Below the pieces are notes generated by a model. It searched no databases. It had not been told where the DNA came from and saw nothing but the letters and a program-made list of their open reading frames with translations. Positions 32,702 through 36,783 of a stretch of 64,000 nt of DNA are shown in pieces; the first letter of the stretch is position 1; each line of letters starts with the position of its first letter. Origin of the DNA: Polynucleobacter asymbioticus (lineage in GTDB: Bacteria; Pseudomonadota; Gammaproteobacteria; Burkholderiales; Burkholderiaceae); assembly GCF_018687575.1 (NCBI RefSeq), contig NZ_CP061297.1, positions 1,556,821-1,620,820 on the forward strand, read 5' to 3'. The translations under genes were made by a program, and so were the position numbers.

Positions 32702-32728
32702 TTAGCACTCGCGTGTAGGGAGTGCTGA
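32702..32728 (-). promoter_or_regulatory. CIRCE operator (HrcA-binding site) of groESL
   Basis: TTAGCACTC, nine bases, GAGTGCTGA: the CIRCE inverted repeat (TTAGCACTC-N9-GAGTGCTAA) with one mismatch in the last arm. It abuts the -10 box of the minus-strand promoter, the normal position for HrcA repression. hrcA is not in this window. Confidence 0.92.
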
Positions 32729-32776: not shown

Positions 32777-32834
32777 TTCAAAAGGACTTCCTGCACTTTC
32801 TATAATGAAGGCAGGAAAGTAGGTAGATTCCTAC
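32777..32834 (+). promoter_or_regulatory. Probable promoter and inverted TTCCT/AGGAA repeats before the bvgR/A/S-like operon
   Basis: A perfect TATAAT lies at 32801-32806, with a weak -35 (TTCAAA at 32777-32782, spacer 18). TTCCTGC (32788-32794) and GCAGGAA (32811-32817) form an inverted repeat spanning the -10. A further TTCCT (32828-32832) faces the AGGAA, and GTAGG/CCTAC (32819-32823 and 32830-32834) can form a small hairpin. From memory, BvgA binds heptads like (T/A)TTC(C/T)TA; ATTCCTA at 32827-32833 fits. The assignment to the neighbouring regulator is inference. Confidence 0.45.
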
Positions 32835-32910
32835 ATATAAATAAGCCTTAAGCCCTTACCGCTCCAATCCGTCCTGCCTAGACTGGCTATTCAATGATTG
32901 GAGAATGCTG

Positions 32911-33738
32911 ATGAGCCCGAAATCCCGGCTGTACACGCTTGTAAAGGCTTGGAAGAACAAACCCTTCCAAGAAGTGCGCGATGCCTGCGGCCAGCCTTGG
33001 CTTGGTCTTAGCGGAGAAGCGCTAGAAGAGCACCAGTCCTGGTCCCAGCGACAAGCGATTAGTAACGAACCCATCTTTAATAGCCAAGGAAGCAAGCTGA
33101 CGAGCTCTTTATTTAGACCATTACTGACTGCCAACGACAAACAGCTCCTCAGATTATTCATGGAGGGCCTGGATACGATTACCTATTGGTATCGCAGCGG
33201 TCGCTTTATTCCTGGCATCTTGCCCATACCAGCGAAAAACCTCACTTCCAGTGACTTCATTGATGCTTTGAGCGACCTGATCTTGAATTCTCGACTACCC
33301 GTTGGTCTAGTAAGCCTGGGAGTACACAAACTTGAGGATGCCGACTCCATGGATTCCTGCATGGAAGGTCTATTGCGCATGCGCCGCCTTGGCGTCTTAA
33401 TCCATGCCCTCGATTTTTGTGGGGCCAACTCACAGATTCAATGGATTAAACACATGGAACCGGAGGGCATTCATATCGAGATGGGGCAATTCCGTACCGA
33501 AGGCTTGCCAAATGAAATGATTTCTCTTGGCCAGCAATTCCATTCCCAAATCTATGCCAGGAACATTACCTTGGTTAAGGATTTAGAAAATGCCATGGCG
33601 ATGGGAGTACACCACTGCTATGGCGGACTGATGATGCCACCCTTAAGTCGTCATCAAATGCTACACGCGAGCGATAGCCGCATCGCCAAAGCCATTTTTT
33701 CGCTGCACCCTCATAAAAACCTAAATGGAGACAAGTAA
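32911..33738 (+). CDS. Degenerate EAL-domain protein, BvgR-like
   Basis: A 275-residue protein whose latter two thirds follow the EAL fold pattern but without the catalytic residues. The usual EALLR motif is replaced around residue 65 (TSSLFRP after NEPIFN), the DDFGTG loop reads LDFCGA at 167-172, and the metal- and substrate-binding Lys/Glu positions are also changed (IHIEMGQF; SQIYARNIT). It is therefore unlikely to hydrolyse cyclic di-GMP and may act by binding a partner or nucleotide. The ATG at 32911 is preferred over 32905 because GGAG lies 7 bases before it. Its stop overlaps the response regulator start by one base. Bordetella BvgR is also an EAL-type protein beside bvgAS, which is why I suggest that relation. 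Homology over this distance is not proven. Confidence 0.75.
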   Translation: MSPKSRLYTLVKAWKNKPFQEVRDACGQPWLGLSGEALEEHQSWSQRQAISNEPIFNSQGSKLTSSLFRPLLTANDKQLLRLFMEGLDTITYWYRSGRFIPGILPIPAKNLTSSDFIDALSDLILNSRLPVGLVSLGVHKLEDADSMDSCMEGLLRMRRLGVLIHALDFCGANSQIQWIKHMEPEGIHIEMGQFRTEGLPNEMISLGQQFHSQIYARNITLVKDLENAMAMGVHHCYGGLMMPPLSRHQMLHASDSRIAKAIFSLHPHKNLNGDK

Positions 33739-34361
33739 TGAGAAAACGCGTGATGTTGGTAGATGACCATCCAGCTATGCTGATGGCATTAAAAAGTATG
33801 TTGCAGGATCAATTGCTTTTTGAGATAGCAGGACAGGCGCAGCATGGAGAGGAGTGTCTACGCTCAATCAAAGAAGTAAATCCCAATATGGTGATATTGG
33901 ATTTAGACATGCCCAAAACTGATGGCTTTGATGTAATCCGTCGGATTGGATTGATGCATCCAGAGGTTCGCATTCTGGTGCTATCTAGCCTAGATGAAGC
34001 AGTCTATGGTGGCAGGGTGCGATCCCTGGGCGCGCACGGCTTTGTGAATAAAACCGCTGGGGCAGATGTCATTTTGGCTGCATGCGTGGCCATCTCACAG
34101 GGATACACCTTCTTCACTCATGGAAAAAATGGCAATACCTCACTAAGCGATAACGATAAATTGGCGCTGATATCCGATCGCGAGTTGCAAGTCATGAAGT
34201 ATCTCGGCAAAGGCAATACCAATCAGCAGATATCGGACTTATTGCACATTAGCAATAAGACAGTGGCAACCTATAAGACTAGAGTCTTTGACAAACTAGG
34301 CATTAACAATATTGCTGATTTGATCTTGTTCTGCCGCATGAACAACATCATCGAAAGCTAA
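33738..34361 (+). CDS. NarL/FixJ-type response regulator, BvgA/EvgA-like
   Basis: A 207-residue regulator with an N-terminal receiver domain (D9 and D10 acidic pocket, phosphoacceptor D55 in VILDLDMP, K105 in FVNKT) and a C-terminal LuxR-type helix-turn-helix at about 145-205, with LISDRELQVMKYLGKGNTNQ and SNKTVATYKTRVFDKL. The GYTFF segment between domains and the NKTVATYKTR recognition helix are close to BvgA and EvgA. Its ATG overlaps the stop of the EAL-like gene, and GGAG precedes it. The hybrid kinase starts 7 bases after its stop, so this is the expected phosphorelay output. Confidence 0.9.
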   Translation: MRKRVMLVDDHPAMLMALKSMLQDQLLFEIAGQAQHGEECLRSIKEVNPNMVILDLDMPKTDGFDVIRRIGLMHPEVRILVLSSLDEAVYGGRVRSLGAHGFVNKTAGADVILAACVAISQGYTFFTHGKNGNTSLSDNDKLALISDRELQVMKYLGKGNTNQQISDLLHISNKTVATYKTRVFDKLGINNIADLILFCRMNNIIES

Positions 34362-34368
34362 AGCCAGT

Positions 34369-36783
34369 ATGCATCGATTCATCTTGAAAAAAGTATTAGC
34401 GCTCTACTGTATCTATGGAGGCCTAGCGTATGCAGGTCCCTTTAGTACTGCAGAGCAATCATGGATCGATGCCCATCCTGTTGTGCGATTTAGTATTCAT
34501 GAGAAATATGCGCCTTACCTCACTCCGGAAAATATGCGAGAAAGTGCGGGGCCTTTTAAGGCGCTGCTGTCAGAAATTGAAGAGTGCACAAAGCAGCAAT
34601 ATGTAGCAGTATGGAGAAAAACAGATTCAGAAGGCTTGAAGCAGCTCCGAACAGGCGAGGTAGATTTCATCATCGATCCGCCAAATATTAACGACCATGT
34701 TTTGAAATTCGGCTCTCTATCTGAAGCCATCTTTTGGGGGCATGATGCCGTCATCAGCAAAGCCTCTAGCAGACTGGACTCAGCCAATCTCAAGATTGGC
34801 TACTTTGATCGAGGTCTTGAAAATGCACCCTACAGTGAGAGCAAGGAAAGCCAAGCACCAGGCAACTTAATTCAATCCCTCATTAAAAGTGATATCGAGG
34901 CACTAGTTATGCCTATTCGCTTAGCACGTCAACTAATCCGTGAGGCCAACAATTCAGAGCTCAAAATTGACGGTTTATATCGTCGAGATCCTTTTGCATA
35001 TCGCTGGCTCATTTCAGAGCAAGATGCCCCTTTACACGATGTATTAAGGCACTTTCTGAATGACTTAGATCCGATTGCTTCACGCCAGCTTTTTGCTTTA
35101 GACGATGAGCTCCAGTCAAAATCAACCCTGTTGCCTTGGCTCAGTGCCATCTTTGTGCTGATGATTAGCGGGGTCATGTTTTACCAACTACACAGAAAAT
35201 ATTTCCATCAAAAGAAAGCTGCCCTTGAGCTGCTGCACTCCAAGGAGTTAGCTGAAAAAGCAAATGCTGCCAAGTCTGCTTTTCTAGCGACGATGAGTCA
35301 TGAAATTCGTACGCCAATGAATGCCATCTTGGGTGTTCAAGAACTACTTCTCGGTAGTGCGCAGTTTCCAAATAAAGATAAGCCTCTATTAAAAAGTGCT
35401 CAAGCATCCGCTGAATCTCTCTTGGGCATGCTAAATCAAGTGCTAGATATTTCTAAGATTGAGGCTGGCAAACTGACTCTCAATCTAGAGCCCTGTAATC
35501 CACATCAATTGATCATGGATATTCATGCGGCATTTTCTACGGTAGCTAAAAAGCAAGGGCTACTTCTCCACACTTCAATTGACCCCAGAATCGCCGAAGT
35601 ACTCATGATTGATTCCTTGCGACTACGACAAGTTCTACAGAATTTACTCAGCAATGCAATTAAATTCACTTTCGAAGGTGAGGTGTACTTTTCGATCACC
35701 ATCCTTGCAGATGATCATGCCGGCCAATTAATCGAGTTCCGGGTAATTGATACTGGGGTCGGAATGGGTAGCGATCAAATCAAGCTGGCTCTGCAGGCTT
35801 TTGAGCAATTACCCGCTGCCCAAGAGTCTTACCTATCCGAGCAAAAAAGGGGAACAGGACTTGGACTCACCATCACTAATCACCTAGTGAACTCGATGAA
35901 TAGCCACCTCTATTTTGAAAGTGCCCCAGGCTTTGGAAGTAATGTTCACTTCTCAGTCGCCTTTCCCAGAACCAGCGCTGCAGCTCCACAGACTAAAAGC
36001 TTTGATTCAATCACCATAACACCTAAAGGCTTAAGGTCAAAAAGACCGGGGCGAAAAAACTGTGGCATCCATGCTCTGGTGGTTGAAGATCACCCAGCAA
36101 GTCGCCAAATTTTGTCACTTCAATTGGAGGCGCTTGGTATTCATACTTGTGTTTGTGAGAATGCTGATATTGCACTAGAGTTAATCAAAGACCATCACTT
36201 TGATCTCATGCTGACAGATCAATCTATGCCCGGAATGCAAGGCTCTCAATTAGCTCAACATATCCGAGCCCTAGGTAATCGTGACCTCATCATTATTGGT
36301 GTCACAGCCGATATCTATGCCCTAGACTCACGCCATCAATTTTTATCCTCGGGGATGAATGGCATTCTTATCAAGCCGCTGAGCTTAAGCGCACTTGAGA
36401 ATGAACTCATGCGCTATTTTGATTCCGGCCCAGATTCCGTCTGTACGGATGAGCCTTATTCGTTTGATGCCTTCTCTAATCTCATCAAAGACGATCCGCA
36501 TCAGATCTGCGTGATCTTGGAGGAGATTGAAAAAGTGCATCTGGACGCCTTGATGCAATTACGTCAAAACAATAATCAAGCCCCACTTAATGAAAAACAA
36601 TTTCAGAGCCTGGTTCATAAAGTCAAAGGTGGCGCACAACTACTCCAAGCTACTCAATTCATTCAAGCCTGCCAAGCTCTTGAGGTCAGCAGCCCCCTTT
36701 TAGAGGGTATTGAGGAATTCATCGCATTACTAGAAGAGCAAAATCAAATAATCGAGGCCTACAAGAAAAGATATCAAGAGTAA
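34369..36783 (+). CDS. Hybrid sensor histidine kinase, BvgS/EvgS-like, with one Venus-flytrap domain
   Basis: Domains in order: signal peptide 1-22; a single periplasmic SBP_bac_3-type Venus-flytrap domain about 25-248; one membrane helix about 254-273; HisKA with H311 in SHEIRTPMNAILG; HATPase with N429 (LLSNAIKF), DTGVGMG at 461-467 and GTGLGL at 495-500; receiver with D574 and D617 and K669; C-terminal HPt with H750 in VHKVKGG. The expected relay is H311, D617, H750, then the upstream response regulator. At 804 residues it is much shorter than BvgS (about 1240), having one rather than two flytrap domains and no PAS domain before HisKA. The flytrap domain probably senses a small molecule, identity unknown. 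Confidence 0.9.
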   Translation: MHRFILKKVLALYCIYGGLAYAGPFSTAEQSWIDAHPVVRFSIHEKYAPYLTPENMRESAGPFKALLSEIEECTKQQYVAVWRKTDSEGLKQLRTGEVDFIIDPPNINDHVLKFGSLSEAIFWGHDAVISKASSRLDSANLKIGYFDRGLENAPYSESKESQAPGNLIQSLIKSDIEALVMPIRLARQLIREANNSELKIDGLYRRDPFAYRWLISEQDAPLHDVLRHFLNDLDPIASRQLFALDDELQSKSTLLPWLSAIFVLMISGVMFYQLHRKYFHQKKAALELLHSKELAEKANAAKSAFLATMSHEIRTPMNAILGVQELLLGSAQFPNKDKPLLKSAQASAESLLGMLNQVLDISKIEAGKLTLNLEPCNPHQLIMDIHAAFSTVAKKQGLLLHTSIDPRIAEVLMIDSLRLRQVLQNLLSNAIKFTFEGEVYFSITILADDHAGQLIEFRVIDTGVGMGSDQIKLALQAFEQLPAAQESYLSEQKRGTGLGLTITNHLVNSMNSHLYFESAPGFGSNVHFSVAFPRTSAAAPQTKSFDSITITPKGLRSKRPGRKNCGIHALVVEDHPASRQILSLQLEALGIHTCVCENADIALELIKDHHFDLMLTDQSMPGMQGSQLAQHIRALGNRDLIIIGVTADIYALDSRHQFLSSGMNGILIKPLSLSALENELMRYFDSGPDSVCTDEPYSFDAFSNLIKDDPHQICVILEEIEKVHLDALMQLRQNNNQAPLNEKQFQSLVHKVKGGAQLLQATQFIQACQALEVSSPLLEGIEEFIALLEEQNQIIEAYKKRYQE

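Follow-up and report, generated by a model that had tools for sequence, protein, structure and literature searches.

Among the closest described relatives of the locus reported here, the BvgA/BvgS/BvgR system of Bordetella contains an EAL protein, BvgR, which has been assigned to the catalytically dead class III EAL proteins (PMC11537037). The action of BvgR is poorly understood, with models of an active enzyme and of a receptor for cyclic di-GMP (c-di-GMP) both considered (PMC12805831). The heptad TTTCCTA is a published BvgA element (PMC4314077), and EvgS of the EvgA/EvgS system of Escherichia coli has a PAS domain (PMC5573083). We analyzed a 64,000-nt stretch of the Polynucleobacter asymbioticus genome (contig NZ_CP061297.1, positions 1,556,821 to 1,620,820; hereafter the window) carrying an operon that encodes an EAL-like protein, a response regulator and a hybrid histidine kinase. 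No published account of this Polynucleobacter operon was found among the results examined from literature searches on two-component, EAL and c-di-GMP topics. We give a probability of roughly 0.6 to the reading that the operon encodes a phosphorelay of the Bvg/Evg lineage, autoregulated in most of the genus, with an EAL partner that would be non-enzymatic and independent of c-di-GMP.

A three-gene operon conserved across Polynucleobacter

The three genes are closely packed on the plus strand, as the initial annotation had proposed, with the EAL-like and regulator genes overlapping by 1 base and 7 bases separating the regulator and kinase genes. The EAL-like protein was found in 85 of the 91 Polynucleobacter genomes searched. 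At all 84 genus loci retrieved through matches to this protein, on which the adjacency counts rest, the EAL-like gene was followed by the regulator gene, and at 82 of them the regulator gene was directly followed by the kinase gene; two loci had no kinase open reading frame (ORF) of 500 aa. Ten further genus loci were inspected, nine of which retained the EAL-regulator-kinase order, whole or broken. The operon is real and conserved, with the same gene order recurring across the genus far beyond chance.

The residues of a His-Asp-His-Asp relay are present as H311, D617 and H750 of the kinase and D55 of the regulator, and the earlier description was upheld: the EAL protein is degenerate, the regulator is of the EvgA/BvgA type, and the hybrid kinase carries a full H-D-H relay. 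The H311 position was histidine in 83/83 kinase rows, the window included, and D617 and H750 were conserved in 82/83, the exception being L051, where the kinase is broken in two. Pfam recognized HisKA, HATPase_c and Response_reg in the kinase, and the Hpt domain scored 21.3 bits, under its 24.6 cut-off. The regulator consists of a receiver with D9, D55 and K105 and a LuxR-type DNA-binding domain (Pfam Response_reg and GerE).

EvgA was the best solved structure for the regulator (7.3e-33). In the regulator tree, which included no named Bordetella BvgA and in which several E. coli rows were long branches, the genus regulators formed one clade (100/99) with EvgA, FimZ and five Burkholderiales regulators, apart from NarL, UvrY, RcsB and UhpA. 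In the kinase tree, 19 genus kinase cores fell in a clade (96/91) that also held EvgS and BvgS-like kinases and was separate from generic hybrid kinases; this tree used 47 of 48 rows (E. coli BarA was missing from the extracted cores), included no named Bordetella sequence and had EvgS as a long branch. Two kinases adjoining regulators of the first clade also fell within the EvgS/BvgS-type clade. An unrelated NarL regulator or a generic hybrid kinase was rejected, because the trees place both proteins with EvgAS/BvgAS-like pairs, which bears out the grouping proposed at the outset. Judged from these comparisons, the operon encodes a putative genus-wide phosphorelay of the Bvg/Evg lineage, a different variant from the known ones.

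The median ratio of nonsynonymous to synonymous substitution rates (dN/dS) was 0.004 for the regulator, versus 0.020 for GroEL, 0.057 for dacB and 0.10 for the kinase, as estimated from 14–19 sequences of the close relatives of the window, with 29–112 pairs per gene within the dS limits. In the loci compared, purifying selection thus acted more strongly on the regulator than on GroEL.

Table 1. Features of the operon and its upstream region, in window coordinates
Feature	Position	Strand	Remarks
Palindrome GTAGGTAGATTCCTAC	32819..32834	+	Candidate regulator-binding site for autoregulation
Candidate sigma-70 promoter TTACCG-17 bases-TAGACT	32856..32884	+	By eye
EAL-like gene	32911..33738	+	275 aa; ORF, Pfam, model
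Response regulator gene	33738..34361	+	207 aa; NarL/EvgA-type
Hybrid histidine kinase gene	34369..36783	+	804 aa
Periplasmic Venus flytrap, single	34435..35124	+	Sequence nearest EvgS and BvgS (second flytrap) periplasmic domains
Predicted transmembrane segment, residues 253-271	35125..35181	+	
HisKA and HATPase_c	35269..35961	+	H311 at 35299-35301
Receiver domain	36076..36402	+	D617 at 36217-36219
Hpt domain	36553..36735	+	H750 at 36616-36618

The first ATG of the EAL-like ORF is at 32905; the start at 32911 is preferred, because only a start of the latter type is present in some relatives. The window is part of a single 1.84-Mb contig, and its genome is 99.99% complete. The groES/groEL genes on one side of the operon are divergent from it, and a dacB-like gene lies on the other side (gene names assigned by eye). 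In 67 of the 84 genus loci a divergent groES lay upstream, 10 loci being truncated on that side, and a piece of dacB lay downstream in 83, immediately next in 73. An inverted repeat, TTAGCACTC-N9-GAGTGCTGA, was seen by eye at 32702-32728 upstream of groES and resembles the CIRCE element. L072 and L088 have an ORF on the opposite strand (472 or 532 aa) between the kinase gene and dacB.

The distribution searches covered overlapping sets of 150 genomes, 399 genomes of the order and 299 genomes of the family. No searched genome outside the genus contained a full-length EAL-like protein, the matches there being confined to EAL portions of different and mostly longer proteins, and in the family set 39 of the 40 listed Polynucleobacter genomes were matched, some as fragments. 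The 64 loci from the contig database came from records titled Polynucleobacter, from betaproteobacterial or Burkholderiaceae metagenome-assembled genomes (MAGs), and from one record titled as a Thermoflexus MAG (L182), which carries a Polynucleobacter-type locus and is probably a mislabelled or mixed record. The six of the 91 genus genomes without the EAL-like protein (G022, G037, G051, G067, G069 and G084) had no close kinase, the best one (G084) grouping with generic kinases in the tree, and no close regulator, for which the best full-length match reached 28% identity. Because all three genes were missing, the operon seems to be absent as a unit from these genomes, of which G069 and G084 are at least 99% complete. 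A genome from a separate draw, G655, lacked both the EAL-like protein and the regulator.

The EAL-like protein and c-di-GMP

The AlphaFold model of the EAL-like protein (predicted local distance difference test (pLDDT), 79.8) comprises a predicted amphipathic N-terminal helix, a low-confidence linker and an EAL-fold domain. In most loci the helix is kept, and that of the window protein is amphipathic, with a hydrophobic moment of 0.49. Foldseek matched the model to EAL domains with E down to 1e-12. Among 78 full-length proteins (the seven genus loci with an EAL ORF shorter than 255 aa were excluded), six of the nine active-site positions never held the usual residue. The EAL-motif E was absent in 78/78, and the replacements were themselves recurrent: N and K were replaced by P and H, respectively, in 75 proteins each, E by G in 71 and Q by Y in 74. 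The second Asp was retained in 19 proteins, whereas each of two Glu positions, that of TET and the late one, was retained in two. The model and the alignment together indicate an EAL fold without an active site, and the lack of catalytic residues places the protein in class III.

An active c-di-GMP phosphodiesterase, as the family is publicly annotated, would agree with the fold and with the name 'diguanylate phosphodiesterase' found among the best 120 of 613 matches. The missing active-site residues led us to reject this assignment, however, and its chance is close to negligible: the window protein scored 22.7 bits against Pfam EAL (PF00563), under the 31.3 cut-off, and its own genome gave no GGDEF match. 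The public label is probably wrong for this EAL protein family.

Pfam searches detected GGDEF in 60 of the 91 genus genomes and none in 31, including that of the window, absence here meaning no recognizable synthase, since one of unknown kind would escape such a search. Of the 31, 22 reach 90% completeness or more at no more than 5% contamination, and the remaining ones may miss genes. EAL domains above the cut-off occurred in 27/91 genomes, the own genome not among them; it had no GGDEF or EAL match at an E-value of 1e-5, and thus no detected means of making c-di-GMP, and no PilZ match at 0.1. These data bear on a model that makes the EAL-like protein a receptor for c-di-GMP, without catalytic activity, reporting the messenger to the phosphorelay. 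The same model has been proposed for BvgR in a review (PMC12805831), and 56 of the 60 GGDEF-bearing genomes carry the protein. However, so do 29 of the 31 GGDEF-less ones, including the complete, PilZ-less genome of the window, and the active-site positions are as altered as described above, which makes a receptor quite improbable. Sequence data strongly suggest instead that the protein acts in a non-enzymatic, c-di-GMP-independent manner. Since it is kept even in genomes without a recognizable c-di-GMP synthase, it probably works through contact with other proteins.

The rapid divergence of the EAL-like sequences, which differ by a mean of 0.32 among 44 loci, and the presence of broken copies in certain genomes might point to a decaying remnant kept in the operon by chance. 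Against this, the median dN/dS of the EAL-like gene was about 0.10 and the maximum 0.19 (112/171 pairs), an ORF of at least 255 aa was present in 77/84 loci, the other seven being broken or lying at the edge of a contig, and the replacement residues were conserved; such a remnant is very improbable.

Sensor loss, upstream palindrome and proposed mechanism

The sensor model had a periplasmic-binding-protein fold (pLDDT 86.0), and a profile of 19 sensors matched EvgS (4.9e-11) and BvgS (1.6e-7) in the PDB. The fold search returned the binding-protein domain of RmcA first and BvgS VFT2 second and third; this search alone does not point to BvgS, many solute-binding proteins scoring nearly equally. 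The flytrap of the window kinase had no Pfam match, and SBP_bac_3 was found in 5 of the 19 sensors scanned (best 7.1e-4). A single flytrap is present rather than the tandem of BvgS, and no PAS domain was detected between membrane and kinase (Pfam, E 0.1), where the transmembrane (TM) segment ends at residue 271 and HisKA starts at 301, about 30 residues apart. The locus had been called a reduced version of the Bordetella system, a description that fits this architecture.

Of 82 genus kinases, 21 had an eroded flytrap or none at all. It was full at 60 loci and at L051 (full-length, broken in two), and partial at four; flytrap-less kinases had either at least two predicted membrane segments (579–637 aa, six loci; two-TM) or at most one (510–538 aa, 11 loci; one-TM). 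The remaining loci comprised one without a kinase and one with a fragment at a contig end. Because ten flytrap-less rows formed one clade (97/91) in the kinase tree, with flytrap-bearing outgroups, the simplest reading of the sequences is one loss, plus partial erosions elsewhere. The regulator ORF was retained in 21/21 and a full-size EAL ORF in 19/21 of the flytrap-eroded or flytrap-less loci. Within the flytrap-less set, an EAL ORF of at least 255 aa was present in 16/17, the exception, L092, being cut by a contig end. We tentatively raise the possibility that the EAL-like protein serves as a c-di-GMP-independent input or regulatory subunit of the Bvg-type phosphorelay, and might even, as a cytoplasmic protein, be a signal source for kinase and regulator after the flytrap loss in one branch of the genus, a reading that we regard as conceivable rather than probable.

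Upstream of the operon, GTAGG-N6-CCTAC occurred exactly in 62 of 80 regions, compared to 0.015 expected from mononucleotide shuffles; the scan covered the window and 79 of the 84 loci (missing L065, L078, L092, L100 and L118). The 5′ end of the palindrome lay 91–93 bases before the EAL start in 59/62 regions and 92 bp before it in the window. By kinase class, it was found in 55/58 full-flytrap loci (window included), 3/4 partial ones, L051 (1/1) and the fragment locus (1/1), and not in the one locus without a kinase (0/1). TAGACT was present within the last 100 upstream bases in 67/80 regions and in 0/9 one-TM loci. Of 65 sites collected with one degenerate position permitted on each side, 63 had a right heptad agreeing with TTTCCTA at six or all seven bases; the left half was weaker. 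The longer form GTAGG-N4-TTCCTAC had a single exact match in the own genome. Matches with up to two mismatches numbered 49, compared to 158 in a backwards control, and we therefore inferred no regulon. Two-mismatch palindromes at chance level were seen upstream of an mraZ-like and a 2-oxoglutarate-dehydrogenase-like ORF (G000:C1:140184 and 811211; L290 and L306; names by eye).

These features fit a mechanism in which the flytrap kinase would move phosphate from H311 through D617 and H750 to regulator D55, and the phosphorylated regulator would bind the palindrome and adjust the promoter of its own operon, the one-TM branch excepted. The co-translated EAL-like protein, neither an enzyme nor in need of c-di-GMP under this proposal, would most likely be a protein partner that tunes either the regulator or the kinase core; its amphipathic N-terminal helix might keep it close to the membrane.

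Several observations weigh against this mechanism. NCBIfam ranked TorS first for the kinase, BarA next, then five others, and EvgS eighth. The predicted autoregulation is not genus-wide, because the exact palindrome was found in 0/9 one-TM and 2/6 two-TM loci. The evolutionary distances of the EAL-like protein correlated with those of dacB (0.95), the kinase sensor (0.94) and the kinase core (0.69), and such correlation singles out no specific partner; the partner could be of another kind, such as RNA, the membrane or another regulator. In four small genomes where the neighbouring dacB is broken, the operon also decays in various ways. The regulator is intact in G017, where the EAL-like gene is broken and the kinase lost, in G721, where both are broken, and in G023, whereas in G565 only pieces of the EAL-like and kinase genes remained and no regulator was found; the state of G017 and G721 suggests that the regulator alone may act in reduced genomes. 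That the distances show no specific EAL-kinase co-evolution, and that the regulator outlives the EAL-like gene in G017, G721 and G023, would also suit an EAL-like gene that has only its promoter in common with an ordinary two-component pair and serves some unrelated process. We regard this as rather unlikely, given the invariable EAL-regulator adjacency (84/84), the joint absence of close regulator and kinase from the six EAL-less genomes, and EAL neighbours of the same regulator clade in three other families.

Relatives outside the genus and comparison with known systems

Searching the 399 order genomes yielded 22 non-genus regulator places above 195 bits, the next scores being 187. An EAL gene stood beside the regulator or kinase in nine of them (L224, L225, L228, L268–L272 and L281), including all four loci with two-flytrap kinases (L225, L228, L271 and L272); L283, with an EAL gene about 5 kb off, was left out. 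Seven of the nine belong to one family, six of those to one genus, and three families are represented in total. The initial expectation that the EAL gene tracks the regulator and kinase thus held within the genus, but outside it only at these 9/22 places. L228 has the EAL-regulator-kinase order on one strand and an intact EAL domain. At L225 (8107-9444), in another family, a receiver-EAL protein with a partly degenerate active site lies beside a two-flytrap BvgAS-like pair, and EAL decay next to Bvg-like pairs may therefore have happened more than once. The suggestion that the Polynucleobacter form is ancestral was rejected, since two-flytrap, PAS-bearing relatives point instead to a reduced, derived form; from its sequence, the genus operon looks like a reduced member of a wider EAL/BvgAS-like arrangement.

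Among 11 non-genus regulator loci scanned, a heptad-like element was clear only in L271 (0/200 shuffles as good); 4–9 of 200 shuffles were as good in L224, L268–L270 and L281, and 20 in L225, and the element was at chance in L226, L227, L228 and L272. A 13-kb E. coli stretch around evgAS did not contain the EvgA-like pattern TTCYTACA. Upstream of evgA the heptad scored 9/14 at best, versus 11 in the window, a comparison made without a shuffle control.

Polynucleobacter offers a natural test for the models of BvgR action: purifying selection maintains an analogous dead EAL protein linked to a phosphorelay of the Bvg kind, and 31 of 91 searched genomes of the genus have no recognizable c-di-GMP synthase. 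Flytrap loss to differing degrees within one genus, with the relay otherwise kept, also provides material on the contribution of the sensor in a Bvg-type kinase.

The degenerate stand-alone enterobacterial EAL protein YdiV/RflP, compared by description only, is not known to be linked to a two-component operon. It is akin to the protein proposed here in that it has been reported to alter the DNA binding of a regulator (PMC7515728). RocS1/RocA1/RocR of Pseudomonas aeruginosa is similar in that a BvgS-like kinase, a DNA-binding regulator and an EAL protein are encoded together (PMC12051241, PMC3083521), but RocR is described as a phosphodiesterase with its own receiver, whereas the EAL-like protein of Polynucleobacter has neither receiver nor active site, and rocA1 is described as divergent from rocR-rocS1. 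EvgA/EvgS of E. coli provided the closest solved structures by sequence for both regulator and sensor and shared their tree clades; in contrast, EvgS has two flytraps rather than one, and no EAL gene was found among ten annotated features around evgAS.

BvgS likewise has two flytraps, compared to one, with no PAS domain found, in Polynucleobacter. The EAL-like gene is first in the operon and on the same strand as its partners, whereas bvgR in the bvg locus has the opposite orientation. The sensor has been lost in part of Polynucleobacter, and the genome of the window has no GGDEF match, both differences from Bordetella. In other respects, BvgA/BvgS/BvgR is a close counterpart, combining an EvgA-type regulator, a flytrap hybrid kinase with a His-Asp-His relay and a linked class III EAL protein (PMC11537037); the regulator is under very strong constraint in both (PMC2737282). 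In the candidate promoter element found here, the right half-site resembles the TTTCCTA heptad of BvgA (PMC4314077), the left one less so.

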